64,000 bases of DNA from Parapedobacter soli (GTDB lineage: Bacteria; Bacteroidota; Bacteroidia; Sphingobacteriales; Sphingobacteriaceae). The position numbers and the translations under genes are program-made. The notes under the pieces were generated by a model. The model had not been told where the DNA came from. It searched no databases and was given only the letters and a program-made list of their open reading frames with translations. Location of the stretch: positions 62,001 to 126,000 of the forward strand of contig NZ_JAMXAY010000001.1 in the NCBI RefSeq assembly GCF_025460835.1. Reading direction: 5' to 3'. Within the stretch, counting starts at the first letter, position 1. Each line of letters begins with the position of its first letter. Below, one piece after another: positions 2,317 through 30,090 of the stretch.

Positions 2317-3309
2317 TTACGTAGCCACTTCACTGAGCATAATCGGTACGTTTTGTTCAAACGATCGCTGAGCAGCCACCGCAATCATCGCCGCTTTCAG
2401 CCCATCATCGCCCCTCACCGGTATCTCAAGGTCATCCCGCACGGCTTTGATGAAAGCCTGCATCTCCGTGAGGTATGATGTGGTATAGCGGTCCATAAAA
2501 AAGTGCAGCGGCAGTGATGATTGCGCCCCACCGCTATGGTAATACACATGGTTGTCCGGCTTGTTGTTATCTACCAACGCCATTCCCTCGGAGCCGAAAA
2601 CTTCCAGCCGTTGGTCATACCCATATACCGCTTGCCGACTATTATCGATCACCGCCATGGAACCGTCTTCAAAGGTCAATGTCACTACGGTCGTATCTAT
2701 ATCGCCTGCAGTTGCCACTGCTCCTCCGGTGAGTGTAGCAGCCGCAGCATATACTTGCACTACCTCTTTACCCGTGATATACCGTGCCATGTCGAAATCA
2801 TGGATAGCCATGTCCATAAACAGCCCCCCGGAACTTTGCAGATAGGCCAACGATGGTGGTGCCGGGTCGCGGCTGGTTATTTTTACCATATGTACAGTGC
2901 CAATTTTCCCTTCACAGACCAGCGAGCGCAACTTCATGAAATTCGCATCAAACCGCCGGTTGAAGCCCAGCATCAGTTTGATGCGACTTTGCTTTACGAT
3001 GGTCAGCGTCTGCTCGATGCGCGTGAGCGAAAGGTCAAGTGGCTTTTCGCAGAATACATGCTTGCCCATGCGGGCACACCGCTCTACGTAATCGGCATGG
3101 GTGTCCGTGGGCGAACAGATAACGACTGCATCAACCCTTGGGTCGTCAATGAGTTTATCGGCCTCCGTGTGCCGCACGTGTGTCGGTAATGCATCATGGC
3201 ATACATCAGCGACCATCACCACCTCAGCCTCTGGTATTTGCTGGGTGATATTGTTATAGTGTATTTTACCAATCCGGCCAAGGCCGATAATCCCGATTTT
3301 CAGTTGCAT
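2317..3309 (-). CDS. iolG: myo-inositol 2-dehydrogenase
   Basis: IolG oxidises myo-inositol to 2-keto-myo-inositol (scyllo-inosose) with NAD+, the first step of the pathway; it is cytoplasmic. The protein has 330 residues and the Gfo/Idh/MocA layout: a Rossmann motif GLGRIG at 9-14, catalytic Lys89 in CEKPLD, and Asp166/His170 in MDMAIHDFDMAR, matching the Lys-Asp-His set of Bacillus IolG. The stretch IDNSRQAVYGYDQR is typical of IolG rather than of other family members. It is the last iol gene of the block, 26 bases after iolE. Substrate preference among inositol isomers cannot be read from the sequence. Confidence 0.93.
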   Translation of the reverse strand: MQLKIGIIGLGRIGKIHYNNITQQIPEAEVVMVADVCHDALPTHVRHTEADKLIDDPRVDAVVICSPTDTHADYVERCARMGKHVFCEKPLDLSLTRIEQTLTIVKQSRIKLMLGFNRRFDANFMKLRSLVCEGKIGTVHMVKITSRDPAPPSLAYLQSSGGLFMDMAIHDFDMARYITGKEVVQVYAAAATLTGGAVATAGDIDTTVVTLTFEDGSMAVIDNSRQAVYGYDQRLEVFGSEGMALVDNNKPDNHVYYHSGGAQSSLPLHFFMDRYTTSYLTEMQAFIKAVRDDLEIPVRGDDGLKAAMIAVAAQRSFEQNVPIMLSEVAT

Positions 3310-3335: not shown

Positions 3336-4241
3336 TTATAGTCCTAATTGTCTTAAATAAGCTCGATTATTATTGGCACATATTTTTGGTGCCCCCATCC
3401 CTGGCAATACATCCTGCTCCACCACAATCCATCCGTTATAGCCATCGGCACCAAGTGTTGCCAATATGGCACCGAAATCTACCACTCCCTTTCCCAATTC
3501 ACAAAACACGCCCCGCTTCACCGATTCGAAATAATCCCACTCGTTTGCGCCCGATGCCGCACCGACTTGCGCGGCATAATCTTTGAAGTGCACGTGCCAA
3601 ATACGATTTCCGTACTGATTGACCGCAGCCATGGGATTGCCACCGCCAAAGGCGTAATGCCCCGTATCGAAGCAGAGACCAAGCAGTTGCGGATCGGTCA
3701 ATGACATCAGGGTGTCGAGTTCTTGGGGCGTTTCCACATAACCGCCACAATGGTGGTGGAATACTGTGCGCATCCCGTATTCTTCTTTCACCGCCTGTGC
3801 CACTTGCATTGCGCCTTGGGCGAACGTCTCCCATTGGCGCTCATCCAAACCCATTGCCGGGGTTATACGCCCCGCGTAGGCTGTACGTAAAGGAACCGTC
3901 CCATTATCATCGGCAAGCACAATAAAAGCATCCGTATAATCCGCGTCAGCCATCAATCCCGCTACCCGCAGGGCATTCGCCACACCTCTCTGGTGGGCAC
4001 CCTTTTGTACCAACGGCACCGGTACAAATGCACCCACGAGATCCAACTGGAACCGGCTGACGACCTCCTTGAGCGCAGCGGGCTCCGTGGGCATAAATCC
4101 CCAGTCGCCCAATTCGGTTCCCACATAACCGGTTTCCCTGATTTCCCGCAACACCTGCAGATGGTCTGGTGCCTCCGCCTCGAGATCAAATTCCAATGCT
4201 CCCCAAGAACAAGGCGCGTTCGCTACTTTTATTCCTTCCAT
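3336..4241 (-). CDS. iolE: myo-inosose-2 dehydratase
   Basis: IolE dehydrates 2-keto-myo-inositol to 3D-(3,5/4)-trihydroxycyclohexane-1,2-dione, step two of inositol breakdown. The 301-residue protein is a xylose-isomerase-like TIM barrel. The N-terminal NAPCSWGALEFD is a hallmark of IolE, and FHHHCGGYVETPQELD and CFDTGHYAFGG carry the expected metal-site His, Glu and Asp residues. Length is normal. It starts only four bases after the iolA stop, so translation is probably coupled. Assignment is firm by sequence and by its neighbours. Confidence 0.94.
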   Translation of the reverse strand: MEGIKVANAPCSWGALEFDLEAEAPDHLQVLREIRETGYVGTELGDWGFMPTEPAALKEVVSRFQLDLVGAFVPVPLVQKGAHQRGVANALRVAGLMADADYTDAFIVLADDNGTVPLRTAYAGRITPAMGLDERQWETFAQGAMQVAQAVKEEYGMRTVFHHHCGGYVETPQELDTLMSLTDPQLLGLCFDTGHYAFGGGNPMAAVNQYGNRIWHVHFKDYAAQVGAASGANEWDYFESVKRGVFCELGKGVVDFGAILATLGADGYNGWIVVEQDVLPGMGAPKICANNNRAYLRQLGL

Positions 4242-4245
4242 ACCG

Positions 4246-5721
4246 TTAAAATTTTCGTGACCATTCTTTTGGCCACCGCTCGATGACTACCTTGGTCTGT
4301 GTGAAAAATTCGATGGCATGTCTTCCTTGACCATGCAGGTCGCCAAAGAAGCTATCGTTCCAACCACTGAAGGGGAATTGTGCCATCGGCGCAGCCACAC
4401 CGATATTTATGCCGACATTCCCTGCGTTGACCTCGCTACGAAACTTCCGCGCATTGGCACCGCTGCTCGTAAACAAGCACGCCATGTTGCCGTAGTGGTT
4501 ACGATTGATGAACTCCAGTGCAGCATCGACCGTAGGCAAGTTAATGAGGCTCATCACCGGTCCGAATATCTCGGTCTGTATGATTTCTCCACCCAGCGGC
4601 ACATTTTCCAATATAGTGGGCTTAATGAAGTTACCCGTTTCAAAACCTTCGATCGCTGCATTCCGGCCGTCCAGCAGCAAATTCGCGCCTTCGTGCACCC
4701 CTTGTTCGATAAGCTGTTCGATCCGGGCTTTGCTCTCAGTAGAAATCACCGGCCCCATTTCCACGTCATCCAGTAGGCCATACCCTGTCTTCCTGCTTTT
4801 GGCCGCTTCGTACAAGGCGTCCTTCACACGTCCCTGCTCATCGCCTACCACCAAAATATTCGAAGCCGCCAGGCAACGTTGCCCTGCGCACCCGTACACA
4901 CTATCGGTGACGATTCGGGAGGTTGTATCCAAATCCGCATCTGGAAGGACAACCACCGGATTTTTCGCTCCCCCTTGCGCCTGCACGCGCTTGCCATATT
5001 GTGCTCCCTTGGCATAAATATACCGGGCCACACGGGTGGAACCCACAAAACTGATTGCTTTTATCCCCGGATGTTCCAGTATTGCATCTACCGATGCCTT
5101 CCCGCCGTGCACCAAATTGACCACACCCGGGGGCAACCCGATTTGGTCGATTAACTGCATTACCTTCTGCATCGTTAGCGGCACCTTTTCCGACGGCTTA
5201 ATGATAAAGCTGTTGCCGCATGCAATCGCATACGGCAGAAACCAAAAGGCGATCATTCCCGGGAAATTGAACGGTACGATACCCGCACACACACCCACTG
5301 GCTGGCGTATGACAAACTCATCAATGCCCCGCGTTATATTTTCCGAGAATTCACTTTGCAACAGCGTCGGTGCGGCACACGCCGTTTCTACATTTTCTAT
5401 GGCACGCTGCAGTTCGCCAATCGACTCCGCTTTGGTCTTACCGCATTCATTCGTAATGGTCTCTGCCAGTTCGTCCAAATGCTGCTCTAATAATACCTTC
5501 AACCGGTACAAGGGTTGCACCCGCTGCATTACGGGCACAGCTGCCCAATCCGCTTGGGCACGCAATGCCGCTTCCACCGCATCCCCCACATCGGCAGCCG
5601 TATCGTCTCCGTGCGGCACTCGTCCCATTGGTGCCTGGGTAGCCGGATTTATGATATCGATGGCTTGGCGCTCCCGGCTTGCCTGCCAGTGCCCATTGAT
5701 GTAATTCTGTAATATTTCCAT
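4246..5721 (-). CDS. iolA: methylmalonate/malonate-semialdehyde dehydrogenase (CoA-acylating)
   Basis: IolA (MmsA) converts malonate semialdehyde from the aldolase step to acetyl-CoA and CO2 with NAD+ and CoA. The 491-residue protein is an aldehyde dehydrogenase; the catalytic Cys283 lies in AGQRCLAAS. The usual general-base Glu is replaced by Asn in QGGAKNPVV near 253, which is the known signature of CoA-acylating MMSDH enzymes that lack hydrolytic deacylation. N-terminal NYINGHWQAS and VPFNFPGMIAFWF are also typical. It sits between the sodium symporter (14-base gap) and iolE, completing the route to central metabolism. The same enzyme can serve valine breakdown, but context favours inositol. 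Confidence 0.94.
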   Translation of the reverse strand: MEILQNYINGHWQASRERQAIDIINPATQAPMGRVPHGDDTAADVGDAVEAALRAQADWAAVPVMQRVQPLYRLKVLLEQHLDELAETITNECGKTKAESIGELQRAIENVETACAAPTLLQSEFSENITRGIDEFVIRQPVGVCAGIVPFNFPGMIAFWFLPYAIACGNSFIIKPSEKVPLTMQKVMQLIDQIGLPPGVVNLVHGGKASVDAILEHPGIKAISFVGSTRVARYIYAKGAQYGKRVQAQGGAKNPVVVLPDADLDTTSRIVTDSVYGCAGQRCLAASNILVVGDEQGRVKDALYEAAKSRKTGYGLLDDVEMGPVISTESKARIEQLIEQGVHEGANLLLDGRNAAIEGFETGNFIKPTILENVPLGGEIIQTEIFGPVMSLINLPTVDAALEFINRNHYGNMACLFTSSGANARKFRSEVNAGNVGINIGVAAPMAQFPFSGWNDSFFGDLHGQGRHAIEFFTQTKVVIERWPKEWSRKF

Positions 5722-5735
5722 GAACTATTCCTATT

Positions 5736-7337
5736 TTAAACATTTCCCAATAAGATGTAAATCACCAGCGTAATAACTACCAGCGTGATTGCAAAAGGCT
5801 TGGTATACCGCCACGCCTCCATCGGTACAGCTGTGGTATCCAGCGGAGCAACCGCCGTGGTCTGTGCCGGGTAAAGCCGGGATACCCCGAACATGACGCC
5901 CATATTCAGCAAAAACTCGATTCCCCAGATATGTATGAAGTGAATATCCACCTTTAAGATGAATGTGCACAACACGTAAAAAATTAACCCGGTAAACAGG
6001 GCCGCTTTGGCCCCGGCAGCCGAAATACGCTTGAAAAAAAAACCGCCGATCATGATGGACGCGATAGGGATAAAAAAGATACCGTTCAGTTCCTGCAGCA
6101 ATTGGAACAGCCCCTCGGGTGCATTAGCCACAAAAGGTGCCGCCACGATAGAAGTTATGGCGAGTAAGGTCGCCACCATCCGCCCCATAGTCACCAGCTT
6201 CTTTTCCGGTGCCCCTGTTCTGATCATCCGCTTATATACATCGATACTGAAAATGGTCGACGCACTGTTGAGCACCGCATTGAACGTACTGAGTACGGCA
6301 CCCATGATTACCGCAGCAAAAAGCCCCAAGAGCGGCATCGGCAGGATTCTTTTGACCAACTCGGGGTATACCATGTCTTGATTGTCATAAAAGGCATCGC
6401 TGAAATAATAATAACCGATTACACCGGGCAAGACAATAATGAAAGGAACGAGGATCTTCAGCAGGCCGGTATATAATAGCCCTTTTTGCGCTTCCTTAAG
6501 ATTTTTCGCACCCAGCACCCGCTGAACAATCGTTTGATTCATGCACCAGAAGTATAGCTGGTTAATCACTAGTCCGGTGAAAAGCGTACTGAATGGCATC
6601 ACCGAATCTTCTGTGCCGATAACGTTGAATTTTTCTGGACTGTGTTCGAAAACGCGGGCCAAACCGTTCAGTGGATTCCCATCACCGATATAGATGAGTG
6701 CCAAAACAGGTATCAGCAAGCCACCGAAAAGCAATCCATAACCGTAAATAACGTCCGAAACAGAAACTGCTTTCAGGCCGCCAATGATGGCATAGGCAGC
6801 ACCGATACATCCCACCACCACCACCGTAATCCAAAGGCCGGTCTCTCGGCTCACACCCAATACTTCCGAAATATTGAAAATACTTTCCAGGTTGATGGCC
6901 CCCGTGTATAAAACAATCGGCAATAGGGTCACGGCAAAAGAAACCAATAAAAACAGTGCAATCAACGAACGAGTGCCCTTGTCGAATCGCCTTTCCAAGT
7001 ATTCCGGTATGGTGGTAAGCCCCATCCGCAAGTACTTAGGCACAAAATACACCGCCGCTGCGATAAGCGCCAAGGCGGAGGTCACCTCCCAAGCGATGAT
7101 GATAAATCCGTTTTTATAGGCCGAACCGTTCATACCGACCAGGTGTTCAGTCGAGATGTTCGTCATAATCATGGAGGCGGCGATTACCGGCCCCGTCAGG
7201 CTCCGACCCCCAAGGAAATAGCCATCTTGCGTACTCAGGTTGTCCTTACGCATGCGGAGCCAAGCATAGATACCCACAAATAGGGTAAACCCTACGAAAC
7301 TAATAATGGCAATTAGGGACGATGAAGATTCAAACAT
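5736..7337 (-). CDS. SSS-family Na+/solute symporter, probable inositol transporter
   Basis: An inner-membrane sodium:solute symporter of 533 residues with some 13-14 hydrophobic helices. Family features include the N-terminal DGYFLGGRSLTGPVIAASM segment and NISTEHLVGMNGSAYKNG near 60-80. The SSS family includes the animal SMIT inositol carriers, and its place between iolD (31-base gap) and iolA makes inositol the likely cargo; that substrate is inference from context. The ATG at 7337 was chosen over an upstream TTG at 7343. It would take up inositol released in the periplasm by the phosphatases encoded upstream in the block. Confidence 0.88.
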   Translation of the reverse strand: MFESSSSLIAIISFVGFTLFVGIYAWLRMRKDNLSTQDGYFLGGRSLTGPVIAASMIMTNISTEHLVGMNGSAYKNGFIIIAWEVTSALALIAAAVYFVPKYLRMGLTTIPEYLERRFDKGTRSLIALFLLVSFAVTLLPIVLYTGAINLESIFNISEVLGVSRETGLWITVVVVGCIGAAYAIIGGLKAVSVSDVIYGYGLLFGGLLIPVLALIYIGDGNPLNGLARVFEHSPEKFNVIGTEDSVMPFSTLFTGLVINQLYFWCMNQTIVQRVLGAKNLKEAQKGLLYTGLLKILVPFIIVLPGVIGYYYFSDAFYDNQDMVYPELVKRILPMPLLGLFAAVIMGAVLSTFNAVLNSASTIFSIDVYKRMIRTGAPEKKLVTMGRMVATLLAITSIVAAPFVANAPEGLFQLLQELNGIFFIPIASIMIGGFFFKRISAAGAKAALFTGLIFYVLCTFILKVDIHFIHIWGIEFLLNMGVMFGVSRLYPAQTTAVAPLDTTAVPMEAWRYTKPFAITLVVITLVIYILLGNV

Positions 7338-7368
7338 AAGCAACGGTTATGGCTAGTGTACACACATT

Positions 7369-9225
7369 TTATAAATGACGGCGTTGTTTTTCCTTTTGGC
7401 TCACGGACTGCTCGTAGGCTTGCTGTACGCCGGCAGTCCCGGATACCGCAGCGAGCGGTACTTCCCACCATGCGTGGCCATAACCAGCCATCTTCCGCTC
7501 GGGTCCGGTTTCTACATAGACCACGGTGGTCGTTCCGTTAGCCTTAGCCTGTTCCAGCGCCTTGCCAAAGGAAGCCGCGTCAGATGCACGGATGACCGTA
7601 GCACCCAGACTTTCTGCATTCTTGGCAAGGTCTACCGGCAGCAGCTGGCCATCCAACTGCCCCGACCCTTCGTCTCGTGCCCTATATTGGGTGCCGAAAC
7701 CTTCGGTACCCAGCGATCTGGACAAGCCACCGATGCTCGCGAATCCGTGGTTATTGATTAGGATGATGGTGAGCTTGTAGTCTTCCTGTATGGAGGTCAC
7801 GATTTCCGACGACATCATCAGGTAGCTTCCATCGCCTACCATCACATACACCTCGCGCCCACGATCGGCCATCTTGACCCCTAGTCCACCGGCAATTTCA
7901 TATCCCATACACGAGTACCCGTATTCGAGATGGAAGCCCTTGGGGTCGCGTGTGCGCCAAAGCTTATGCAAATCGCCGGGCAGGCTGCCGGCAGCACATA
8001 CCACCACATCTTTGGGTGCCGCAAAATCATTGACCAAGCCGATAACCTCCGCTTGCGAGAGTCGTTGGTCGCTTTCCGGCTCATAAGCCAATGCTACTTT
8101 TTCATCCCAGCTGTGATTATAGGCCGCTACCCGGTCTCGGTAGGCCGTGTCCACGCTGTAGTCGGCCAAGCGGTCTGTTAATGCCTCCAGCGTGGCACGC
8201 GCATCGCCGGTGAGGGCCAAGCCCGCTTGTTTGTGGGCGTCAAACTCTGCAACATTGATATTGATAAAGCACACATCTGAGCTTTGAAAGGCCGTTTTGG
8301 ACGCGGTGGTAAAATCACTGTACCGCGTACCGATACCAATCACCAAATCCGCCTCTCCGCTAACCGCATTCGCCCCTTCCGTGCCCGTTGCCCCCATGGC
8401 GCCTAACTGATGGGGGTCATTATAAGGCAGGGACCCTTTGCCGGCAAAAGTCTCTGCAACGGGAATACCAGTGGCGTGTACGAACGCACGGAGCGCATCG
8501 GTGGCTTCTCCATAGATTACCCCGCCACCGGCCACGATCATTGGCCTCTTGGCCGCACGGATCCGTGCAACAGCTCGTTGTATCAATTCTGCGTCAGGTA
8601 AGGGTCGTGGGATATACCACACCCTTCTTTCGAACAATTCGTTGGGAAAATCATAGGCCTCTGCCTGCACGTCTTGCGGTAAACAAAGAGTCACTGCACC
8701 TGTCTCCGCTGGTGACACCAATACCCGCATTGCCTGCATCAACGAAGCGATTAGCTGCTCGGGCCGGTTAATGCGGTCCCAAAACCGGGATACGGGCCGG
8801 AAACAATCGTTGACCGAGACATCTGCCGATGCCGTAAATTCGAGTTGCTGCAACACAGGGTCCACATGCCGGCTAGCAAAAATATCGCCCGGAAGCAATA
8901 ATACCGGAAGCCGGTTGATGGTGGCCGCTGCAGCAGCCGTCAGCATATTGGTCGCCCCCGGACCAATGGACGAGGTGCAAGCAAATGTAGACAGGCGGTT
9001 TCTCATACGGCTATAGGCCGCGGCGGTATGGACCATGGCCTGCTCATTGCGTGATTGGTAATAGGTGAATGCAGGGTAGTCAAATAGCGCTTGGCCTATT
9101 CCACCCACGTTGCCATGTCCGAATATACCGAAACAACCGGCAAAGAATTTATGTTGCACACCATCCCGTTCCACGTATTGCTGGTCGAGAAATCGGATAA
9201 GTGCTTGGGAAGTAGTCAACCTCAT
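7369..9225 (-). CDS. iolD: 3D-(3,5/4)-trihydroxycyclohexane-1,2-dione acylhydrolase
   Basis: IolD opens the inositol ring, hydrolysing the cyclic diketone to 5-deoxy-glucuronate; it is a thiamine-diphosphate enzyme of the acetolactate-synthase type. The 618-residue form starting MRLTTSQALIRFLDQQYVE has the family's standard N-terminus. Further signs are GIFGHGNVGGIGQAL near 35 and the ThDP motif starting GDGSYLMMSSEI with INNHGF. A longer frame runs back to 9402 inside iolC, but ATG 9225 is preceded by GGAGG eight bases upstream, one base after the iolC stop, which settles the start. Coupled translation with iolC is expected. Confidence 0.95.
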   Translation of the reverse strand: MRLTTSQALIRFLDQQYVERDGVQHKFFAGCFGIFGHGNVGGIGQALFDYPAFTYYQSRNEQAMVHTAAAYSRMRNRLSTFACTSSIGPGATNMLTAAAAATINRLPVLLLPGDIFASRHVDPVLQQLEFTASADVSVNDCFRPVSRFWDRINRPEQLIASLMQAMRVLVSPAETGAVTLCLPQDVQAEAYDFPNELFERRVWYIPRPLPDAELIQRAVARIRAAKRPMIVAGGGVIYGEATDALRAFVHATGIPVAETFAGKGSLPYNDPHQLGAMGATGTEGANAVSGEADLVIGIGTRYSDFTTASKTAFQSSDVCFININVAEFDAHKQAGLALTGDARATLEALTDRLADYSVDTAYRDRVAAYNHSWDEKVALAYEPESDQRLSQAEVIGLVNDFAAPKDVVVCAAGSLPGDLHKLWRTRDPKGFHLEYGYSCMGYEIAGGLGVKMADRGREVYVMVGDGSYLMMSSEIVTSIQEDYKLTIILINNHGFASIGGLSRSLGTEGFGTQYRARDEGSGQLDGQLLPVDLAKNAESLGATVIRASDAASFGKALEQAKANGTTTVVYVETGPERKMAGYGHAWWEVPLAAVSGTAGVQQAYEQSVSQKEKQRRHL

Positions 9226-9226
9226 G

Positions 9227-10246
9227 TTAAAATCCTCCATGTTTTTCGATGAATACCATTGACTCGTCCAGTGTAGGCATGAAATTGGCGCAACCAGGTT
9301 GCAGTACCACCTGTGCTCCACTCGCGTTACCCATGCGGCACGACTTGTACAGGTCCCACCCGTTAAGGTAGCCGTAAATAAACCCGGAAGCAAACGCATC
9401 ACCTGCTCCTAAGATGTTTAGCGGCACCACCGGAAATCCGGGTACATCTATCTTATTCCCTTTGTTATCATATACGGTTGCACCTGTTGCACCTCGTTTC
9501 ACCACTAATACTTCCACACCCAACGCCAAAACCCCCTCAATCGCTTTATCGATATCGCCTTTGACGGTAGGAGCAGAAATCTGCTGGTGTTCAATCGTCA
9601 CCTGCGAGGCATCCTCCAACATCGCTGCCAAGAGCTCTTCCTCGGTACCGATTGCCACCTGGATATTGGGGAGCAACGCCCGTACCATTACGCCAAACGA
9701 TCGGATGTCTGCCCATTGGTCTGCCCGGAAATCAATGTCGAGCAGGGTGGTCACGCCGTGTGCTTTAGCACGTTCAGCCGCATGGAAGACTGCGCTGCGG
9801 CTCGGCTCGATATTCAATGCCGTGCCTGACAGTTCAATCAGCCGCACACTCGCCATGTCTATAGCATTCACATGATCGATGGTAATCTGCGAATCTGCCG
9901 CATTGTTGCGGTAAAATACAAGTGGAAAGGTATCTGGCGGCTGTATGCCCAGCAACACGGCACTGCTCCGCGCGCCGGCTATGCGGGGAATAAAGGCCGT
10001 TTCCACCTTTTCCTTTTCCAGAAAATTTAAAATGAAGTCGCCTACTTTGTCGTCGCCCACACCCGTAAGGAGTGCCGCTCGGAGTCCCAACCGGCTGCAA
10101 CCGGTGGCAATATTCAACGGAGATCCCCCAACGAAGGCATCAAACCCTTTAATGGCTATAAACTCAGCCCCGATGTTCTGCGAATAGAGGTCTATTGATG
10201 AACGCCCCACCGTGAGCACGTCATATGCTTTTAATTTGCCATCCAT
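9227..10246 (-). CDS. iolC: 5-dehydro-2-deoxygluconokinase
   Basis: IolC phosphorylates 5-dehydro-2-deoxygluconate with ATP, giving the substrate of the IolJ aldolase. It is a PfkB/ribokinase-family kinase of 339 residues. The N-terminal YDVLTVGRSSIDLYSQNIG is typical of IolC, GGSPLNIATGCSRLG at 40-54 is the first PfkB signature, and PLNILGAGDAFASGF carries the catalytic Asp283. Its ATG shares one base with the iolB stop (TAATG) and it ends one base before iolD, so the three genes are tightly coupled. Confidence 0.94.
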   Translation of the reverse strand: MDGKLKAYDVLTVGRSSIDLYSQNIGAEFIAIKGFDAFVGGSPLNIATGCSRLGLRAALLTGVGDDKVGDFILNFLEKEKVETAFIPRIAGARSSAVLLGIQPPDTFPLVFYRNNAADSQITIDHVNAIDMASVRLIELSGTALNIEPSRSAVFHAAERAKAHGVTTLLDIDFRADQWADIRSFGVMVRALLPNIQVAIGTEEELLAAMLEDASQVTIEHQQISAPTVKGDIDKAIEGVLALGVEVLVVKRGATGATVYDNKGNKIDVPGFPVVPLNILGAGDAFASGFIYGYLNGWDLYKSCRMGNASGAQVVLQPGCANFMPTLDESMVFIEKHGGF

Positions 10247-11124
10247 TATCCATTCATTTTTGCGGTTACCATTGGAATCCGCTCATCCCTACCCTTCCAC
10301 GTACCGAATATCCACTCATGGTCCGGATCGGGTGTGTTGGCCAGCGATTGATCCGAGCCCGCTAGGAAGTTGAGGTAATATACATCATAGCCATGGCCGG
10401 CTACCACTGGATGGTAACCTTTAGGTACCAGCACTACGTCGTTATGCCGGGCTAAGGCGATTTCATTTAGGCTGCCATCGCCGGTGTATATCTGCTGGAT
10501 GGCATACCCCTGGGGTTTACTGATTTTATAGAAATACGTCTCTTCCAACCGAGCCTCCACTAACTGTCCATTTTCATCAACAATACGCTCATCGTGCTTA
10601 TGGGCTGGGTATGAGCTCCAGTTGCCCGATGGGGTGTAGACCTCAACAGCGACTAATCGGTGGCAGGGAAATCCTGGCCCCAGCAAATCGTTGATTTGTC
10701 GGGTGGCGTTATCACCACCGCGTATTTCTATCTGTACGTCTTGGGGCTGCTTTAATACTGGCGAAAAATCACGGTCTGTCTCGCACCACCCATAGGCGAT
10801 GTCCAACACATCACTTTCGGCAACGAATTCGAAGGACGTATGGCGCGGCAGGTAAAGCGAATGGGCCATGCCCGAAAAAACATCCTTCCTTCCGTTAAGG
10901 GTCTGCCAGCTTCCTTTATCCGTATTCACTCGATAATTACCCCCTAACAAGATGATGGCATACTCGTTGTCTCCGGTATCATCCTGCCACACCTCACCCC
11001 GCTGCATCGTCCTTGCAGCAAAATTGAGGTATTGCCACCCAGCGTCTTCCCGGCTGATGTGTTGGTAAACCGAGGTGGCATCATCCGGTTTGGCCAAAAG
11101 CCCGCATTGTTGATCCTGTTTCAT
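10246..11124 (-). CDS. iolB: 5-deoxy-glucuronate isomerase
   Basis: IolB isomerises 5-deoxy-glucuronate to 5-dehydro-2-deoxy-gluconate. The 292-residue protein has a bicupin fold. Metal-binding cupin motifs are visible in WSSYPAHKHDE near 170 and in the segment YHPVVAGHGYDVYYLNFLAG near 245. The C-terminal DPDHEWIFGTWK is characteristic. It lies between the aldolase gene (38-base gap) and iolC (one-base overlap). Length and neighbours leave little doubt. Confidence 0.94.
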   Translation of the reverse strand: MKQDQQCGLLAKPDDATSVYQHISREDAGWQYLNFAARTMQRGEVWQDDTGDNEYAIILLGGNYRVNTDKGSWQTLNGRKDVFSGMAHSLYLPRHTSFEFVAESDVLDIAYGWCETDRDFSPVLKQPQDVQIEIRGGDNATRQINDLLGPGFPCHRLVAVEVYTPSGNWSSYPAHKHDERIVDENGQLVEARLEETYFYKISKPQGYAIQQIYTGDGSLNEIALARHNDVVLVPKGYHPVVAGHGYDVYYLNFLAGSDQSLANTPDPDHEWIFGTWKGRDERIPMVTAKMNG

Positions 11125-11162: not shown

Positions 11163-12103
11163 TTATTTGAGGAAAGCTACTGCTTTTCCCGCGGCCCCTA
11201 ATTTTTCAAATTTTTCGACGCACAGTTTTTCCAACGCTTCAACATACATCCTACCTGGCACAATCGGATCAAATTGTTCGGGGTGAGCCGCAAAGAATTC
11301 ACGATGCACCCTTGTCCAAAGCACCCGCAGATCAGTAGCGACGTTTACCTTGCAGATGCCATAGGCCGTAGCCCGCAGAAGCTCCTCGTCTGACACGCCA
11401 CGTGCGCCCCGATGCATTTGCCCCCCGGCCGCATTAATCCGGGCCAGTTCATCTGGATCTACCGATGACCCGCCATGCAAAACCAGTGGGAAGCCGGGTA
11501 ATTGCTGTTGGATGGCATGTAAGATATCGAAACGAATCCCTTGATCGCCAGAAAACTTGTAAGCCCCGTGACTGGTCCCTACGGCTACCGCCAAGCTATC
11601 ACACCCTGTACTTTTCACAAAATAAGCAGCATCCTCCGGTCGGGTATATTTTGATTCGGATTCCGAGACCTGTAGATGATCTTCAATTCCGCTCAACACC
11701 CCCAATTCGGCTTCAACAAACACGTTTTTTTGTGTGCCATCGAAACCACTTCACGTGTGCGGCTAATGTTCTGCTTCAATGGATCATGCGACGCATCGAT
11801 CATCAGGGAACCGTATTGCCCGCTGCCAAGAGCGTTAGCGATATGCGCTTCATTACCGTGGTCTAAATGGAGCGTAAACACCACATCGGGATACACCCGA
11901 GCCGCCGATGTGATCATCGCTGTTAATACCTCGGGCGTAGCGTAATCGCGAGCGACTGGCGTGGTTTGGATAATGACCGGTGACCGACTCGTGTCGGCGG
12001 CCCGGAACACCGCCAAGACTTGCTCCATGGTAAAGACATTAATCGCCGCAACAGCATATTTGCCATAGCATTCTTTAAATAGGGTATGTGGCGATATCAT
12101 CAT
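11163..12103 (-). pseudogene. iolJ: IolJ-type class II aldolase, split by a frameshift at an A7 tract
   Basis: The two halves together form a class II (zinc) fructose-bisphosphate-aldolase-family protein. In this operon that means IolJ, which splits 2-deoxy-5-keto-gluconate-6-phosphate into DHAP and malonate semialdehyde. The N-terminal half (12103 to about 11725) has NVFTMEQVLAVFRAA and the metal motif TLHLDHGNEAH. The C-terminal half (in frame from 11723) has VFVEAELGVLSG, VGTSHGAYKF, VLHGGSS and CKVNVATDLR. The halves are in different frames, joined at seven A residues (minus strand, 11731-11725). Eight A would restore HKKNVFVEAEL and a product of about 313 residues. All other domains look intact, so this is a recent mutation, a slippage site, or a homopolymer sequencing error. 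Confidence 0.88.
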
Positions 12104-12166: not shown

Positions 12167-12182
12167 ACGCAAAGGTTTGCGT
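12167..12182. promoter_or_regulatory. LacI-type operator upstream of the iol genes
   Basis: The 16-mer ACGCAAAGGTTTGCGT is an inverted repeat (CGCAAA, two bases, TTTGCG) 64 bases before the iolJ ATG, in the gap between the metallophosphoesterase gene and iolJ. An identical 16-mer lies upstream of susC at 20543-20558. A perfect 16-base repeat in two regulatory gaps of one locus strongly suggests shared control, most simply by the LacI regulator at 20647. No clear -7 element was found close by. Confidence 0.75.
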
Positions 12183-12199
12183 TACATCTTCACTGGTTG

Positions 12200-13666
12200 T
12201 TAGGGCACAAATAATATGCTATCCGGCAAAACACGTTCGGAAATTAATCGGCTTGCATATCCCACTTCAAGCACTTCACCCATATAATCCTCAAAATACG
12301 CCAGTTCAAAATCGTGATACCCTGCTTCGAGTGCTACCTTACCATCCTTTCGCCGGGCGTTATGCGAGCCATCATTATCAACAACCAGATGCCCGCCAAT
12401 CGAGAGTTGAGAACCGTCGTCAGAATACGTGTAAAACCGATAGACTCCTCGACTTGGAATTTTAATCAATCCCTTAAACACAATAGCAAAGGAGTCCCTA
12501 GCGGTAGCAACGTCAAGCGAAAGATGTTCTGTAGTACCGACGTGGACCAGTTTGGCGTTTCGTGAGGTATCAGCCAATTGCTTCAGTCGCCCACCTTCGT
12601 AATATCGGTAACGGAGCCCTTGGCTTGGATTGTTGACGGGCTTAGGGAGGAGGTAATTCATCGCGTCTTCTTCATCGGCCGAAAGGCCCGATGGATAATA
12701 ATAAACAAGTTCCTTCACGCTTGGTGTACGAACCCAAGTATCAAAGCGGCGCTCCCCTTCGTACAATTTAATGATTCGGCCACCGCGCTGCAAATCGCCA
12801 TATGCGTCGATGCCCGTTGTCCGCCCAAAGGCCAACGCAATGTCATAACGCATGCCGATATAATCATTATTGTGATCGTGCCCCACAAACGCTCCCATGA
12901 CGTCCTGCATCTCGAGAAAAGAGGCGAATAACCCAGAATTGATATCCGACGAGGCAACGCCTTCATTGGCCGTACCAAACGTGTTTTCTTTCTGATGAAT
13001 TTCCTCGAATTCTTTAATCGGTATATGAAAAAAAGCCAAGGCCGGCAAAGGGCCATTCCTATTTTCCGCTGTATATCGGTTGCTTTGCTCGCGATACCAA
13101 GCCAACTGGTCGAAATGCACCCAATCATAATGGCCATATTTGTGGGCCGACGGCCGATTATGCGTATCCAAACAATAAAGCAGCGCCCTCACTTCGTCGG
13201 CCCCACTCGCAAATATGGGAAGCACATAATTTCCACTACCACTGATGGTCGGACCCGCCTCACCGACGAAGTAAGCGGCACCACTCAACGCCTCGAAGAC
13301 CTCCGACCGGGTCATTCCTGCCTCGTCATCGTGGTTGCCCAAGGTCAATGCCCAAGGCATTTTTGCCTCTTCAAAAATCTTCGCTATAGACTCCCATCCT
13401 TCCGCGGCTGGAGGGGCGGTTACCACATCTCCGGTAACAATAGCCAAATCCGGCTGCTCTGCCGCTAGTATATGTAAGATCACTTCCTTTGTACGGGCAC
13501 TATTCGGCGAAGCGTCTTCCCAGTGCAAATCTGTGAACTGCGCAATTTTGAAATGGCCATCGCTGTTAAATCGAAGCTTGATAGCTCCACTATTTCCGTT
13601 ATCACCCTGTTTGCAGCCGAAAGCAAGCAAAACGAGTAAGATTGCAGCTGAAAATATACTCTTCAT
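12200..13666 (-). CDS. lipoprotein metallophosphoesterase with C-terminal PA14-like domain
   Basis: A calcineurin-like phosphoesterase of 488 residues, probably releasing phosphate from organic phosphates outside the inner membrane. MKSIFSAAILLVLLAFGC is a lipoprotein signal. Dimetal motifs occur in order: FTDLHW, VTGDVV, TLGNHDDE, HIP and VGHDHNND. Roughly the last 120 residues (from AKLVHVG onward, with GVYRFYTYSDDGSQLSIGG) look like a PA14 domain, a beta-rich module often binding glycans. It starts 12 bases after the GDPD-phosphatase gene and precedes the iol genes, so inositol phosphates are likely substrates; that is inference. The in-frame TTG 12 bases upstream was not chosen because the ATG gives a normal signal peptide. 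Confidence 0.85.
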   Translation of the reverse strand: MKSIFSAAILLVLLAFGCKQGDNGNSGAIKLRFNSDGHFKIAQFTDLHWEDASPNSARTKEVILHILAAEQPDLAIVTGDVVTAPPAAEGWESIAKIFEEAKMPWALTLGNHDDEAGMTRSEVFEALSGAAYFVGEAGPTISGSGNYVLPIFASGADEVRALLYCLDTHNRPSAHKYGHYDWVHFDQLAWYREQSNRYTAENRNGPLPALAFFHIPIKEFEEIHQKENTFGTANEGVASSDINSGLFASFLEMQDVMGAFVGHDHNNDYIGMRYDIALAFGRTTGIDAYGDLQRGGRIIKLYEGERRFDTWVRTPSVKELVYYYPSGLSADEEDAMNYLLPKPVNNPSQGLRYRYYEGGRLKQLADTSRNAKLVHVGTTEHLSLDVATARDSFAIVFKGLIKIPSRGVYRFYTYSDDGSQLSIGGHLVVDNDGSHNARRKDGKVALEAGYHDFELAYFEDYMGEVLEVGYASRLISERVLPDSILFVP

Positions 13667-13678
13667 AATGGTATACAA

Positions 13679-15613
13679 TTAAAGTGCTAAAGCCTGCTTG
13701 ATTTTATGAAAGATCGCCGTATTTGGATAAACACCCTTGAAATCGTCTGACCCCGGCCCATAGGCGAAAACCGGCAGCATCAACGGCGTATGATCATCCG
13801 TCATGTATAAGGCCGTGATTTCGCCCTCCGCCCAATTTCCGTCAATCAATGTCAATCCACCCGTTTCGTGGTCACCAGTCACAATCACCAATGTCTGGCC
13901 GTCTTCATCAGCAAATTTCAATGCCTCGGCAACAGCCAGATCGAAACTCAACGTTTCCATAATGGATCCAGGTAACGAATTGGCATGGCCAGCGTAGTCA
14001 ATCTTTGCCGCTTCCACCATCAGGAAGAAACCCTTTTCACTCGTCCCATCCAAGCGAAGAATGGCCGATTGTGTTGCCTCAGCCAAAAGCCTGATGTTTT
14101 TTTCTGACACAGCTTTCCCAAATCGGTCATCGATGCAAATGGTTTTTTCGGCGTAGTTAGGCAACTCCCCTAAATCGGTCACGAGCTGATATTGTGCATT
14201 TAACTCATTCCAAAGATCCCTGCCATCATTACGGTGGCTGAACACACGCCTACCGCTCCCAATAAGCAGATCCAATTTTCCGTCCATCAGGTACGCGGTC
14301 AAGGCATCGCTATCGTCCCGCTCAGCCGCGTGTCCGTAAAAGGCGGCAGGTGTCGCATCAGCCACATTACCTGCGGTGACCACACCGCAAACCATTCCAG
14401 CGTCATTCGCATAGTCCGTAATTGATGGGTTAATCTGGCCCACGGAATCTACACTGATGTGGCGATTTTTCGTTTTTTTACCGGTAGCCAATGCACTACC
14501 TCCCGCGGCTGAATCAGTGGTGTATGCATCCAAGGCGCTGGTTTCCTGCAGGCCAATGGTGGGGATGAGCAGTGTACTCAACGTCCTATTAAATGCATAG
14601 GCTGCCTGCAATTGCGCCAACCCCATGCCGTCGCCAATCAATAAAATAACGTTTCTGATACGTTCATTACTTCCGTCTACTGCACCAAGGGGTATATATA
14701 CGGGAATAGCGGCCGACAACGTCATTTCCTTCCCGTCAAATCCTCTGAAACCACGTGTTGTGACATCCAATCTTTCTGCGCGCGTGATTTCACCGCCCTG
14801 TAAAGGCCGTTGCTGGCTGAATGTTTTCCTGTCAAAATTGGAAAAGAACGCAGCACAACGCTCAATCTCATCCGTATTGATGATATCCACACCCATTTTG
14901 TATAACGTATTCCAAGCAGTTATACCATCAGGTGTGCCCCAAAACCGGATTTTCTTGCCAAGTCCATGGGCCTGGTCAATCGCTTTAGCGACCTGTTTGC
15001 CCTCCTTGTCTGTCAATGCTCCTTTCCCGTTCCACTTCGCATAACTGGAAAACGGCGCGCTAATGAACGCCACACGTTCCAACTGGCTCTCGGTATAGTG
15101 AACGTTAAGCCGCCCGTCAAACCAGATGTAGCGCGGGAAATCAGCAAACGCTAAGGGATCCGGCATAGCACCGGAAATCACTACAGTGACCGCATAGGGG
15201 TTTACGGTCTCATCAAACACGTCCGGATATTTTGCGAGGAGATCGACCACTGGCTGTAAGGTTTCCGTAGCAGGCGTTTTCAGATCGATTAGGAGGACGC
15301 ACCTATCCGATGACGCAGCCCATGCCCGCCCTCCATTTGAGGTGAACACGTCTACAATGGGTTTGATGTACAATGCCTCCAAAGTCCGATGAGGTTGTAA
15401 CTCCCCACGGTCATGGCCGACCAATACCGCTCCATCCACTGCAAATACGTCGGCTTCGATGGTATAGACCTGTTGCGAGTATGCCTGATAAAACGGCACT
15501 CGCTGGTGATAGTCATTGTGTGCATGGATCAAAACGCGATCCTGCTGGGCAGCTACTTGGAGTATTGCCCAGCAGGATACGAATATCCATGCTAATAAGC
15601 ATCTCATAGACAT
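13679..15613 (-). CDS. secreted GDPD/PI-PLC-like and alkaline phosphatase fusion
   Basis: A two-domain enzyme of 644 residues with a signal peptide (cut after about QVAA). Residues 26-265 resemble the glycerophosphodiester-phosphodiesterase/PI-PLC-like barrel of the AIM6 type: HAHNDY with His30 and His32, TIEADVF with Glu53 and Asp55, VGHDRGEL with His67, and the last-strand motif INTDEIE. Residues 318-644 are an alkaline phosphatase: LLIGDGMG, nucleophile motif TTDSAAGG (Ser368), GDHETGG and DDHTP. One polypeptide could therefore cleave a phosphodiester and then remove the phosphate. Its ATG overlaps the susD stop (TGATG). With inositol genes downstream, glycerophosphoinositol or a phosphoinositide head group is the likely substrate, by inference. 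Confidence 0.87.
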   Translation of the reverse strand: MSMRCLLAWIFVSCWAILQVAAQQDRVLIHAHNDYHQRVPFYQAYSQQVYTIEADVFAVDGAVLVGHDRGELQPHRTLEALYIKPIVDVFTSNGGRAWAASSDRCVLLIDLKTPATETLQPVVDLLAKYPDVFDETVNPYAVTVVISGAMPDPLAFADFPRYIWFDGRLNVHYTESQLERVAFISAPFSSYAKWNGKGALTDKEGKQVAKAIDQAHGLGKKIRFWGTPDGITAWNTLYKMGVDIINTDEIERCAAFFSNFDRKTFSQQRPLQGGEITRAERLDVTTRGFRGFDGKEMTLSAAIPVYIPLGAVDGSNERIRNVILLIGDGMGLAQLQAAYAFNRTLSTLLIPTIGLQETSALDAYTTDSAAGGSALATGKKTKNRHISVDSVGQINPSITDYANDAGMVCGVVTAGNVADATPAAFYGHAAERDDSDALTAYLMDGKLDLLIGSGRRVFSHRNDGRDLWNELNAQYQLVTDLGELPNYAEKTICIDDRFGKAVSEKNIRLLAEATQSAILRLDGTSEKGFFLMVEAAKIDYAGHANSLPGSIMETLSFDLAVAEALKFADEDGQTLVIVTGDHETGGLTLIDGNWAEGEITALYMTDDHTPLMLPVFAYGPGSDDFKGVYPNTAIFHKIKQALAL

Positions 15614-17190
15614 CAATATCCGTTATTTTGCTTCAGGTTCTCACTCGTAGCAATTTCCCTTACCGGGATCGGAAATACATGGTGTATTGACGGATTGAAC
15701 CGCCTTGCTGGCCATACTTCTACCTCTTCCAACGACGCAATTGTGCCGTTTGCCAAATTCACTTTGAAACCATGCAACGGCTGCGCATAGGTTGTCTGCG
15801 CATCTCCCCAACGAACAAGGTCAAGGTGGCGCCATACCCCCCATTCAAAAGCAAACTCTACGCGTCGTTCATTCTTTAGCTGTGCTTTGGTTGCCTGGCT
15901 ATTACGTCCCAAACCTGCCCGCTCACGGATATCGTCTATCAATTCTTTAGCTACGGGATCGCCTTCCCCATTTTTCCAGATGAGTGCTTCTGCCTTGATC
16001 AGCAAGATTTCGGCGTACCGCATTAACGATATGTTGAGATCGGTGGTCATGTTGTTACCATCAGGGTTAACTGTTTTTCCGATAGCATCAGCGTCACGGA
16101 ATGGCGCGAGGTATTTACGCAGCGTCATCCCCGTTGGGCTCGACGTGGACGCAGGATTGACCTGCCAAATGATATCGTTGCCGATAAACGACACGTGATC
16201 GCCAGGAGCCACAATCGTTGCTGCTCTCCGCTCATCACCTTCCTCAAACGCATTATAAAGCTCAAGTGTAGGCTGGAAATACCCCCATGTGTTATAATAG
16301 CCAAACCCTCCGTTCTGGAAGGATATGCCCGGCCATTTCGAGCCATCGATTTCATTGCTCGTCACACTGTATATGTATTCTGTACTCCAATTGTTTTCGA
16401 TTTCAAACACATCTGCATAGCTGTCCAGCAACCGGTGCTTCTGCGAGTTGATTACCTTGTCGGCGTACGAAATCGCCACATCGTAAAATGAGGCATCAAA
16501 TTGGGCGGCATACAGCGCTGCCCTAGCTGCAAAGCCCCACGCTGCGGTTTTATGCACCAATCCCCAATCGCTTGTAGGGATGTCATCGAAATAAGGCAGG
16601 TATTCCGAGGCGCGCTCCATATCGTTGATGACCATCCGGTAATTTTCAAGCACAGAGGCTGGCCGTGGCACATCGATTTCTTCGGTTGGGGTATCCTCTG
16701 TCACGATGGGTATTCCCCCATTGGGACCATCATCCCCATACCAGGGAGCAAGCCACAGGTAAGCAAACGCACGCCAAAAAAAGGCATTACCTAGGACGAT
16801 ATTTTTTGTAGCATCAGAAATACTTGTAGCATTAGGTATTTCTGCAATAATCCGATTCGCGTAGTTAATGGTTTGGTACATACGGGGCCAATTGTCCCGC
16901 ACATCTCTTGACATCGAACCATTATCTATAAAATTCTTGATATTGGCCGCTTCGGCCTGCGTGCGACCTGTCACCATATCGTCGCTGGCATTTTCATACC
17001 AAAAGAAACCACGGCCCATTGTTCCCTCACGGTACTGCCATTCGTAAAGAGCGTAGACCGTTTGCATGGCCTGCTCATCGGATACGCTACCCAAGTCCGA
17101 AGGTTGTCCATAAGGTTCGAATTCCAAAAAGTCATTGCAAGACGTAAACACCAATACGAGGGCAAACGTCATTATTAAAATCTTCTTCAT
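15613..17190 (-). CDS. SusD/RagB-family surface lipoprotein
   Basis: A SusD-like lipoprotein of 525 residues: the outer-membrane lid that captures ligand for the SusC channel encoded directly upstream (22-base gap). The signal ends in VFTSC with lipid-anchored Cys18. The N-terminal NDFLEFEP and GNAFFWRAFAYLWLAPWYGDGP-like TPR region, and the C-terminal RRVEFAFEWGVWRHLDLVRW, are standard for the family. Its stop overlaps the start of the GDPD-phosphatase gene, tying uptake to phosphodiester cleavage. The ligand cannot be read from the sequence; context suggests an inositol-containing phosphate ester rather than a plain glycan. Confidence 0.93.
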   Translation of the reverse strand: MKKILIMTFALVLVFTSCNDFLEFEPYGQPSDLGSVSDEQAMQTVYALYEWQYREGTMGRGFFWYENASDDMVTGRTQAEAANIKNFIDNGSMSRDVRDNWPRMYQTINYANRIIAEIPNATSISDATKNIVLGNAFFWRAFAYLWLAPWYGDDGPNGGIPIVTEDTPTEEIDVPRPASVLENYRMVINDMERASEYLPYFDDIPTSDWGLVHKTAAWGFAARAALYAAQFDASFYDVAISYADKVINSQKHRLLDSYADVFEIENNWSTEYIYSVTSNEIDGSKWPGISFQNGGFGYYNTWGYFQPTLELYNAFEEGDERRAATIVAPGDHVSFIGNDIIWQVNPASTSSPTGMTLRKYLAPFRDADAIGKTVNPDGNNMTTDLNISLMRYAEILLIKAEALIWKNGEGDPVAKELIDDIRERAGLGRNSQATKAQLKNERRVEFAFEWGVWRHLDLVRWGDAQTTYAQPLHGFKVNLANGTIASLEEVEVWPARRFNPSIHHVFPIPVREIATSENLKQNNGY

Positions 17191-17212
17191 CTTTAAAACA
17201 GCTAATTGCTTC

Positions 17213-20200
17213 TTAAAACGAAACGTTGATACCTAAACTGAACATGCGCGATACGGGAAACCTACCCCCATCGATTCCGAGGTTACCTACCTCGGGGTCA
17301 AACGCCGAATAATCCGTGAGCGTTAACACGTTTTCAGCATTGGCATACACCCGTATGCTGGTTTGCCCTGTCCCACCAATCCGGCCCACCAAGCTGCTTG
17401 GCAGTGTATAAGCGAGGTTTACATTCTTCAACCTCAGGTAATCCGCCTTTTCCAAGAAGTACGACGACACCTTCGAATAGTTGCCGTTCGGGTCATCGAT
17501 GAACGACAATCTAGGGATACCGGAATTCGGATTATATTCGAAGGATTGCAGGATATCCGTGGTCATGTTCCAACCCTTCAACCCCGACGAAGACATTGCT
17601 CTCACACCGTTGAACACATTGACGCCAGAAACACCTTGCCAAAACATACTCAGGCTGAACCCTTTCCAAGTGGTACCAAGGGTAAAACCATAGGAGAAAT
17701 CCGGGTAATCATAAGCGCCCATATATTGCCGGTCGCCATCGTTGATAATCCCATCATTATTGTGATCCACGAACCGGATATCCCCCGGTTTTGCTGACGG
17801 TTGAATCAGCGAAGTCTCGCCGGTTTCTGGATTCATCCACGTATAATTGTTGATCTCTTCTTGGGTCTGGAAAATCCCATTGGCCTCAATCAGGTAATAC
17901 GAGTACCAGGGCTGCCCCACGGTTGATTGCAGTGGTTGCATGGAATTCACGCCTTCACTATGGGCAATCAGCGTACGTTTGCCGATATTCAGCACCTTAT
18001 TTTTCACGGTTCCTAAATTACCGCGTACATCCACATGCCAATCGCCGAACTGTTGTTTATAAGCCAATGAAAATTCAAACCCTGTATTCTCAACCTGCCC
18101 GATATTCGTCTCCGGAGGTGAAGCTACACCCGCTACGGACGGTACTGGCAAGCTTTCAATCAGGTCCTTCGTCTTCTTGCTGAAATAATCCGCTGTCAGA
18201 TTCAGTTTGTTATTGAAGAATCCCAAGTCCACACCTAAGTTGGCCTGTTCGGTGCGCTCCCACTTCAGGTTGGGGTTGGGAATGGTGCCTTGATACAAGC
18301 CAAACATCCACCTGTTCGTATTTTCACCCAAGAATACCCCTACGTCACCCAACGAATATGGCGGTGCGTAGATAAATCGGCGAACCGAACGAACATTGCC
18401 CACTTGCCCCCAACTAGCGCGGACTTTGAGGAAGCTCACCGCATCGCTCTGCGGCATGAACGGTTCTGAGGTCACCTTCCAGGCCACAGAAGCCGCTGGA
18501 AAGACATCGGCGTTGTCACTGGGGTTCAGCTTAGACGATGCATCCCTTCGGATACTTCCCGTGAGGAAGTAACGGTCGTCGTAAGAATACGAGACGCGGG
18601 CAAGCTGAGACATGATAGATTCTTCCCATATCAGTTCCTCCGGCCTATCCGAACTCCAATCCGCAGCGTTTTCAAATACGACGTAATGCGGATATTCGAA
18701 CTGGTAGCCGCGCGTATATACTTTATGGCTTCGCTCAGTCGAGTAATTCATGGTAAATGCACCAAGGGCAGACAGGTAGTGTTTCCCGTTGAATGTTTTC
18801 GAATAAGAGAGGATATTCTCCCAGTTCCAGTTTTTATCGAACAACGACCTTATGCTACGGAAGTTCTCGTCGATTGTCCTTCCTGGTGCTGTAAATCGAC
18901 CCGTAAAGCTTTCACCACGGAAATTTGAGGTATTGTAGGAAAAGTCAGACTTGAATTCCAATCCATTGATTGGCTTTATAATCAGCGAGGAAAGTGAAAA
19001 CACACGATTTGTTGGATTATGTTGCCGGGTATTCAACAATTGGCTCACGGGGTTTAACAAATCCGCTTCTACGCTGAAACCTTCAGCCAGCGCCCAACGC
19101 GGAACGGTCCCACTCGGCAGTTGGTTTCCCAAATCATCGTATTCGTACATTTCATTGAAACGTGGGTAAGCCATAGCGGAGAATACCGCACCTGTATGAC
19201 CCGAGCCGATCTCACTTTGTCCATTGCTGTATCCGTAAAGCAAACTTTGGTTCAGGCTTACCCAGTTATTGAATTTAAAACCTAAGTTCAACCGGGCTGT
19301 AAGGTTCTTATTCCACGTATTCAATAGGGTGCCATCTACGTCATCGTAAGCCAATGATGCCAGCGCATTCAACGATTCACTACCCCCGCTGATGGTAACG
19401 TCATAATGCTGCATCCTACCCGACCGGAAAATCTCATCCACCCAATCCGTCCGGGTTACATTTCCATATGGAAACTGATCCGGGTCATAGGTCGCTGGGA
19501 CACTACGGCCAGCCGCAGCAGAGGCATCCTTCCACACCCGATTGAAATCTTCCGCTGTTAGCACCTCGGGTGTCCGCCACGCTTGCTGCACACCGTTCCA
19601 AGCGTTTGCATCCACACGTAGCGTTCCCGCCCTAGCCTTCTTCGTCGTGATCACGATTACCCCACCGGAACCGGCATATGCTCCGTATATTGCAGATGAG
19701 GCGGCATCTTTCAGCACCGTCACTGTTTCAATGTCTGCCGGGTTAAATGGTGCATTGGGAACACCGTCTACGACATACAGTACGCCATCGCCCGCCCGGT
19801 TTCCACGGCCGCGGATACTGATGTTATCCGTAGCCCGAGGATCACCGCTTTGTTGCACGCGCACACCCGGCATTTCGCCCTGAATGATGTTGCCCAATGA
19901 TGCTGGCCGACCTTTGAACCGATCATCCACGCTGACAGACGATACGGCCACCGAAAGGTCCTGCTTACGATTTGAACCGTAACCAATAGCCACGACCTCA
20001 TCCAGCATATTAGCATCTCCTCCCAATTGGATGTTAATGGTCAACCGTCCATCCACATGCTCCTCCAATGAGGGGAACCCCACATAGGAGAAAACCAATA
20101 TCGCATTGGCTCCCACATCAATGGAATACTCCCCCTCTTCATCCGTTACTGTCGACCTGTTCGAATGTTTTTCGGCAACGGTTACACCCGCCAGCGGCTC

Positions 20201-20314
20201 ACCTGAGTTCTGTTCGGTGACTTTGCCGACTATCTTCTCTTGGGCATACGCCCTACCGCCCAAAGCGACGAGAACAACCAGCAAACAAAAGTTAAGATAA
20301 TAGATTTTTCTCAT
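17213..20314 (-). CDS. SusC/RagA-family TonB-linked outer-membrane receptor
   Basis: A TonB-dependent transporter of 1033 residues. It has a signal peptide (to about Ala24), a carboxypeptidase-regulatory-like domain (EKIVGKVTEQNSGEPLAGVTV and following), the SusC signature LDEVVAIGYGSNRKQDLS, a plug domain (SIRGRGN, YVVDGVPNAPFN, VLKDAASSAIYG) and a long barrel ending in a terminal Phe. It pairs with the SusD protein downstream and heads the whole minus-strand block. It imports ligands across the outer membrane using TonB energy. A LacI-type operator lies 229 bases upstream. Confidence 0.95.
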   Translation of the reverse strand: MRKIYYLNFCLLVVLVALGGRAYAQEKIVGKVTEQNSGEPLAGVTVAEKHSNRSTVTDEEGEYSIDVGANAILVFSYVGFPSLEEHVDGRLTINIQLGGDANMLDEVVAIGYGSNRKQDLSVAVSSVSVDDRFKGRPASLGNIIQGEMPGVRVQQSGDPRATDNISIRGRGNRAGDGVLYVVDGVPNAPFNPADIETVTVLKDAASSAIYGAYAGSGGVIVITTKKARAGTLRVDANAWNGVQQAWRTPEVLTAEDFNRVWKDASAAAGRSVPATYDPDQFPYGNVTRTDWVDEIFRSGRMQHYDVTISGGSESLNALASLAYDDVDGTLLNTWNKNLTARLNLGFKFNNWVSLNQSLLYGYSNGQSEIGSGHTGAVFSAMAYPRFNEMYEYDDLGNQLPSGTVPRWALAEGFSVEADLLNPVSQLLNTRQHNPTNRVFSLSSLIIKPINGLEFKSDFSYNTSNFRGESFTGRFTAPGRTIDENFRSIRSLFDKNWNWENILSYSKTFNGKHYLSALGAFTMNYSTERSHKVYTRGYQFEYPHYVVFENAADWSSDRPEELIWEESIMSQLARVSYSYDDRYFLTGSIRRDASSKLNPSDNADVFPAASVAWKVTSEPFMPQSDAVSFLKVRASWGQVGNVRSVRRFIYAPPYSLGDVGVFLGENTNRWMFGLYQGTIPNPNLKWERTEQANLGVDLGFFNNKLNLTADYFSKKTKDLIESLPVPSVAGVASPPETNIGQVENTGFEFSLAYKQQFGDWHVDVRGNLGTVKNKVLNIGKRTLIAHSEGVNSMQPLQSTVGQPWYSYYLIEANGIFQTQEEINNYTWMNPETGETSLIQPSAKPGDIRFVDHNNDGIINDGDRQYMGAYDYPDFSYGFTLGTTWKGFSLSMFWQGVSGVNVFNGVRAMSSSGLKGWNMTTDILQSFEYNPNSGIPRLSFIDDPNGNYSKVSSYFLEKADYLRLKNVNLAYTLPSSLVGRIGGTGQTSIRVYANAENVLTLTDYSAFDPEVGNLGIDGGRFPVSRMFSLGINVSF

Positions 20315-29961: not shown

Positions 29962-29982
29962 ATTTGTCTGTAAACCGAGCAA

Positions 29983-29990
29983 CAAAAGTA
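29983..29990 (-). promoter_or_regulatory. -7 element that fixes the start of the winged-helix regulator
   Basis: The minus strand reads TACTTTTG, matching the Bacteroidota -7 consensus, with a start point near 29976 and ATG at 29961. The alternative upstream ATG at 29985 would lie inside the promoter and so cannot be used from this transcript. Confidence 0.6.
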
Positions 29991-30077
29991 CTCTTTTTTT
30001 TGAAAGCCGACGTGCGGTCCGCTAGCAGGCCTCCCTGAACGTACAAGTGCAATAACATAGAAACGAAATCAAAATCG

Positions 30078-30085
30078 TAATTTTG
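30078..30085 (+). promoter_or_regulatory. -7 element of the TlpA-like gene, probable leaderless start
   Basis: TAATTTTG matches TAnnTTTG and ends five bases before the ATG at 30091. With the usual spacing the transcript would begin at or within a base or two of the ATG, so translation may be leaderless. No convincing -33 element is present. Confidence 0.5.
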
Positions 30086-30090
30086 TAGTT

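Follow-up and report, generated by a model that had tools for sequence, protein, structure and literature searches.

A single-base frameshift splits iolJ in the assembled inositol operon of Parapedobacter soli

The iolJ gene in the Parapedobacter soli assembly lacks a single uninterrupted reading frame. One base is missing at a run of seven A's within the 64,000-nucleotide stretch analysed here (the window), and the class II aldolase gene that heads the inositol (iol) operon is thereby divided into two fragments. The lesion is an ordinary singleton frameshift. As to its origin, we give an even chance to a recent, strain-level, loss-of-function deletion of one base in the sequenced strain. A consensus error of sequencing or assembly, by which the strain's gene would be intact and one base missed in or beside the homopolymer, is a serious if somewhat doubtful alternative.

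On the minus strand, the site reads GCACAC-AAAAAAA-CGTG, and the codons around the break are ATG GCA CAC AAA AAA ACG TGT. An alignment of the DNA with five intact orthologues contains exactly one gap of one base, directly 3' of CAC, and no second lesion in iolJ. The two halves cover consecutive parts of the PF01116 profile, positions 13-128 in the N half (E 6e-31) and 129-277 in the C half (E 8e-43). The N-terminal ORF closes with a TGA stop at 11695-11693, after 12 final residues that are out of frame in part or in whole. The frame of the C-terminal fragment opens at 11750, and its listed ORF starts at GTG 11723 and ends at 11163. Thus, sequence, ORFs, profile matches, and alignment all confirm the split at the A7 tract that a first-pass annotation had reported. 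The same annotation had called both halves fully conserved, which is loosely put: identity to the P. pyrenivorans protein is 67-72% in the N half and 86-87% in the C half.

The PF01116 matches in both halves and the conserved place in the iol operon identify the product as a class II aldolase, and the operon setting upholds the name iolJ, which had been given by context. By the usual roles of these motifs in class II aldolases, we take HLDHG in the N-terminal fragment to supply the catalytic Asp and one metal-binding His, and GTSHG and LHGG in the C-terminal fragment to supply the other two metal-binding His residues. As the active-site residues are divided between two fragments, the product of the broken gene is very probably inactive. 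The gene shares with IolJ of B. subtilis, also annotated in P. indicus (PMC7500135), its family, these three motifs, and the first place in a conserved iolJ-B-C-D-A-E-G operon. It differs in that the frame is broken in the P. soli genome alone, and in that we infer its specificity for 2-deoxy-5-keto-gluconate-6-phosphate from the operon context.

The operon runs from 12103 to 2317 on the minus strand in the order iolJ-B-C-D-symporter-A-E-G (Table 1). The remaining pathway genes had been described as intact, and NCBIfam models or, for iolE, a full-length orthologue bear this out. Gene order and full-length orthologues are common to P. pyrenivorans, P. indicus, and Belliella, and the operon of P. 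indicus, including iolJ, has been described (PMC7500135). Within Parapedobacter, the genus to which its nearest relatives also assign the present genome, iolB occurs in five of nine genomes, P. soli included. IolE scores 197 bits against a TIGR04379 cut-off of 290, so that the NCBI model would leave it unnamed; the same form of IolE is retained across Parapedobacter and Belliella.

Table 1. Features of the iol region of P. soli, in window positions
Feature	Positions	Strand	Evidence
iolJ-type class II aldolase gene, one base missing	11163..12103	-	PF01116 halves consecutive; 1-base gap vs five intact orthologues
N-terminal fragment ORF, 136 aa	11693..12103	-	HLDHG; PF01116 match
C-terminal fragment ORF from GTG, 186 aa	11163..11723	-	GTSHG and LHGG; PF01116 match
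A7 tract at frame break; missing base inside tract or at 5' edge	11725..11731	-	Sequence and alignments
iolB, intact	10246..11124	-	TIGR04378 over cut-off; sole copy in genome
iolC kinase, intact, lacking a fused DUF2090 aldolase	9227..10246	-	TIGR04382 over cut-off
iolD, intact	7369..9231	-	TIGR04377 over cut-off
Sodium/solute symporter, intact	5736..7343	-	NF007790 over cut-off
iolA (methylmalonate/malonate-semialdehyde dehydrogenase), intact	4246..5721	-	TIGR01722 over cut-off
iolE, intact, full length	3336..4241	-	TIGR04379 E 5e-58, sub-cut-off; full-length P. pyrenivorans orthologue
iolG, intact	2317..3309	-	TIGR04380 over cut-off
Weak terminator-like hairpin upstream of iolJ	12167..12182	-	1 found vs 0.4 expected in shuffles

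A second iol operon is rejected by the single iolB of the genome. DUF2090, another type of aldolase, has been proposed for the same cleavage step (PMC9007349), and a bypass of this kind (PF09863) is absent from the genome. The search for another class II aldolase, which the first-pass annotation had proposed, returned one further gene (C101:159012-160025, 32% identity); its sequence resembles a housekeeping enzyme, which could at most be a weak substitute for IolJ.

Comparison with relatives places the break in P. soli alone. None of the four operon-bearing congeners has a split iolJ; their genes are unsplit and 65-80% identical. In a search of 396 Bacteroidota genomes, which favours full-length matches and would miss split distant homologues, P. 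soli itself was the only one of the 101 matching genomes (E <= 1e-60) with a pair of half matches. The congeners are therefore the stronger evidence that the break is unshared. The A tract is likewise private to P. soli, being absent from all orthologues examined in other species: the corresponding site reads CATGAACGAGGCGTG in P. pyrenivorans, CACCGGGTTGGTATT in P. indicus, and CATGAAAAG in the two other congeners. Neither half of the gene has evolved faster than its P. pyrenivorans counterpart, as judged by dN and pairwise identities, most dS values being saturated. Identity to P. indicus is 0.68 in P. soli and 0.70 in P. pyrenivorans for the N half, and 0.73 and 0.74 for the C half. Consequently, the lesion is either recent or an artefact.

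The lost base may be an A, as slippage rates favour, or a G or C, as the family residues favour. At the affected codon, three of the four operon-carrying congeners have GAA (Glu), with the alignment gap directly after CAC, and 37 homologues include 22 with Gln, 7 with Glu, and 1 with Lys. Adding one A, which had been said to restore the family sequence, thus restores the frame but yields the Lys found in just one homologue. Both CAC-GAA-AAA-AAC-GTG and CAC-CAA-AAA-AAC-GTG contain exactly seven A's, so that loss of a G or C beside an unchanged A7 fits the family as well as a shortening from A8 to A7. Judging from these codons, the ancestor may have carried a G or C followed by seven A's, which weakens the case for the A tract as a switch. 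In the sampled part of the genome, runs of at least seven identical bases plus one flanking base make up 0.29% of coding positions. A chance indel at such a position is therefore unlikely, and slippage, in replication or in the reads, is favoured.

To judge the accuracy of the assembly, we surveyed about 0.53 Mb of its 5.2 Mb, or ~10% of the genome, for other frame breaks. Among 131 orthologue matches to 1.58 Mb of P. pyrenivorans (at least 60% identity), 122 span the full length in a single frame, and iolJ alone is a verified split. Scanning 419 kb for coding potential yielded 175 ORF junctions, iolJ included; of the most suspicious ones, 15 were checked with Pfam, none carries one family over two frames, and all 15 were rejected as frameshifts, being neighbouring genes or giving no sign of a split family. 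One ORF pair without a family match was judged by eye. Visual inspection also dismissed C1:27953-28189 (sequence upstream of a conserved gene), C1:53488-54131 (an ORF opposite ribosomal-protein genes), and C4:4609-5324 (which resembles a 23S rRNA gene read in reverse complement), C1 being the contig of the window. At window positions 29461-30088, an A8 run lies upstream of the likely start, and this candidate was likewise rejected. The same 419 kb contain 91 runs of at least seven within ORFs that encode 150 aa or more. Where sampled, then, the assembly is not generally indel-prone. A mutator genotype is rejected as well: mutS and mutL are intact, and no raised slippage rate is therefore expected.

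The contigs fall, by length, in the order that results when length-ranked names are sorted lexicographically (C1 304 kb, C2 112 kb, C3-C12 6 to 4 kb, C13 103 kb), a pattern that fits the output of a short-read assembler and suggests this technology. The small contig C4 (at about 2226-2546 and 4609-5324) contains rRNA-like sequence and an ambiguous base beside a repeated stretch, which suggests a collapsed or scaffolded repeat. A single N at C1:228489, in non-coding-looking surroundings, is a sign of an unresolved base or a mended gap.

If the deletion is real, replication slippage probably removed one base inside the short A tract or at its edge. The frame would be lost within codons 125-127 and translation would end 12 codons after His124, with the active-site residues divided between the two fragments as described above. 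Cleavage of 2-deoxy-5-keto-gluconate-6-phosphate would be lost, and inositol catabolism would be blocked at this step unless the housekeeping aldolase substitutes. We infer the presence of the indel in the DNA, the loss of activity, and the metabolic consequence. The weak hairpin at 12182-12167 hints that iolJ may be the first gene of its transcript, in which case the premature stop might reduce expression of the downstream genes as well.

A recent null allele is supported by the unshared break, the lack of accelerated evolution and of a second lesion, the otherwise accurate sampled assembly, contig names that suggest short reads, and a homopolymer site that is not easily hit by chance. Set against it are the undecayed remainder of the operon, intact mutS and mutL, a census of ~10% of the genome, and the expectation from the GeneTack study that homology-validated singleton frameshifts are mostly sequencing errors (PMC3711429). 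On balance, these points leave the null allele as the most likely reading, at even odds. The singleton class of that study, hypothetical pseudogene or sequencing error, matches the present case in its single break validated by homology and Pfam, with neither a conserved site nor a cluster of similarly broken genes; we see no essential difference, a real indel and an error both being compatible with the P. soli consensus.

The expectation from GeneTack favours a consensus error, for which a homopolymer is the typical place and with which the otherwise perfect preservation of iolJ and its operon agrees. However, neither the ~122 full-length orthologues nor the 91 runs within ORFs contain a comparable break, and in a short-read assembly, as the contig names suggest, homopolymer indels would be rare. 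We thus consider an error a close rival, though rather less than probable. Of the origins offered in the first-pass annotation, sequencing error survives as one of two readings, while a plain recent null mutation was not among them.

Two further origins that the annotation had offered fare poorly. Transcriptional slippage at A7, or alternatively -1 ribosomal slippage on AAA, could provide a minority of full-length enzyme, as the frame would be regained through one additional A in the transcript or through a -1 shift, and A/T runs do acquire insertions during transcription, the more so the longer the run (PMC5574713). In that genome-wide study, however, no such insertion restored a reading frame. 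Moreover, the A tract is unconserved in relatives, and at seven it falls short of the length of about nine from which selection against slippage is usually visible (PMC1088944). The heptamer in phase at the break is C-AAA-AAA, not A-AAA-AAA or A-AAA-AAG, and hence no slippery X-XXY-YYZ heptamer. Local RNA structure is no better than in shuffled sequences (z 0.06), which leaves no stimulatory structure at A7, and no conserved frameshift site is present in the iolJ homologues of the relatives examined. Thermus dnaX (A9) and Shigella mxiE (PMC1088944) likewise have a homopolymer where two ORFs of one protein overlap, whereas the iolJ run is shorter and unconserved, and the split is confined to one genome. 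Programmed recoding at the iolJ A7 is thus not supported, and leaky rescue of the enzyme at a low level is improbable.

Phase variation, in which reversible changes in tract length would switch inositol use on and off, is more improbable still. It draws on the homopolymer at the break, yet the tract is absent from every orthologue examined and is short, the break recurs in no relative, mutS and mutL are intact, and the 91 similar or longer runs of the sample lie in ordinary ORFs. In addition, a cytoplasmic catabolic enzyme would be an unusual target, and the tract may already have numbered seven A's before the break.

Scarcely credible is a two-piece enzyme, in which a β1-β4 fragment and a β5-β8 fragment re-initiated at GTG 11723 would assemble as half-barrels into a working aldolase. 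Structure prediction for the orthologue in P. pyrenivorans (mean pLDDT 79, pTM 0.83) does locate the break in a loop that joins helix 109-125 to strand 129-134, in the middle of the eight-stranded barrel, and GTG 11723 lies at the start of β5 with A's at -3 and -6, positions at which upstream A's favour initiation in Bacteroidetes (PMC6847099). Its context score of 0.57, however, ranks among the weaker real starts and just under the 90th percentile of random positions (0.87; the medians are 3.9 at conserved starts and -3.6 at random positions), the N half ends in wrong residues, the relatives examined have nothing similar, and, given the lack of accelerated evolution, the split is too young for any adaptation.

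Should the null allele be real, nature would have provided an iolJ mutant whose upstream kinase is intact, a strain suited to the question of whether the phosphorylated intermediate accumulates or is toxic. As a caution, one base decides between an inositol-positive and an inositol-negative call, depending on the annotation pipeline. Programmed recoding can be told from ordinary indels on existing data if tract and codon are compared across relatives and the other frame breaks of the assembly are counted.

Directly upstream of the operon, the minus strand of the window (12200-20314) encodes a PA14/metallophosphoesterase protein, a SusD/SusC pair, and a protein of 645 aa that combines GDPD-type and alkaline-phosphatase domains. 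At the corresponding position in P. pyrenivorans, a close SusC is lacking (28% identity). In P. soli, this locus possibly frees inositol from phosphorylated inositol compounds.
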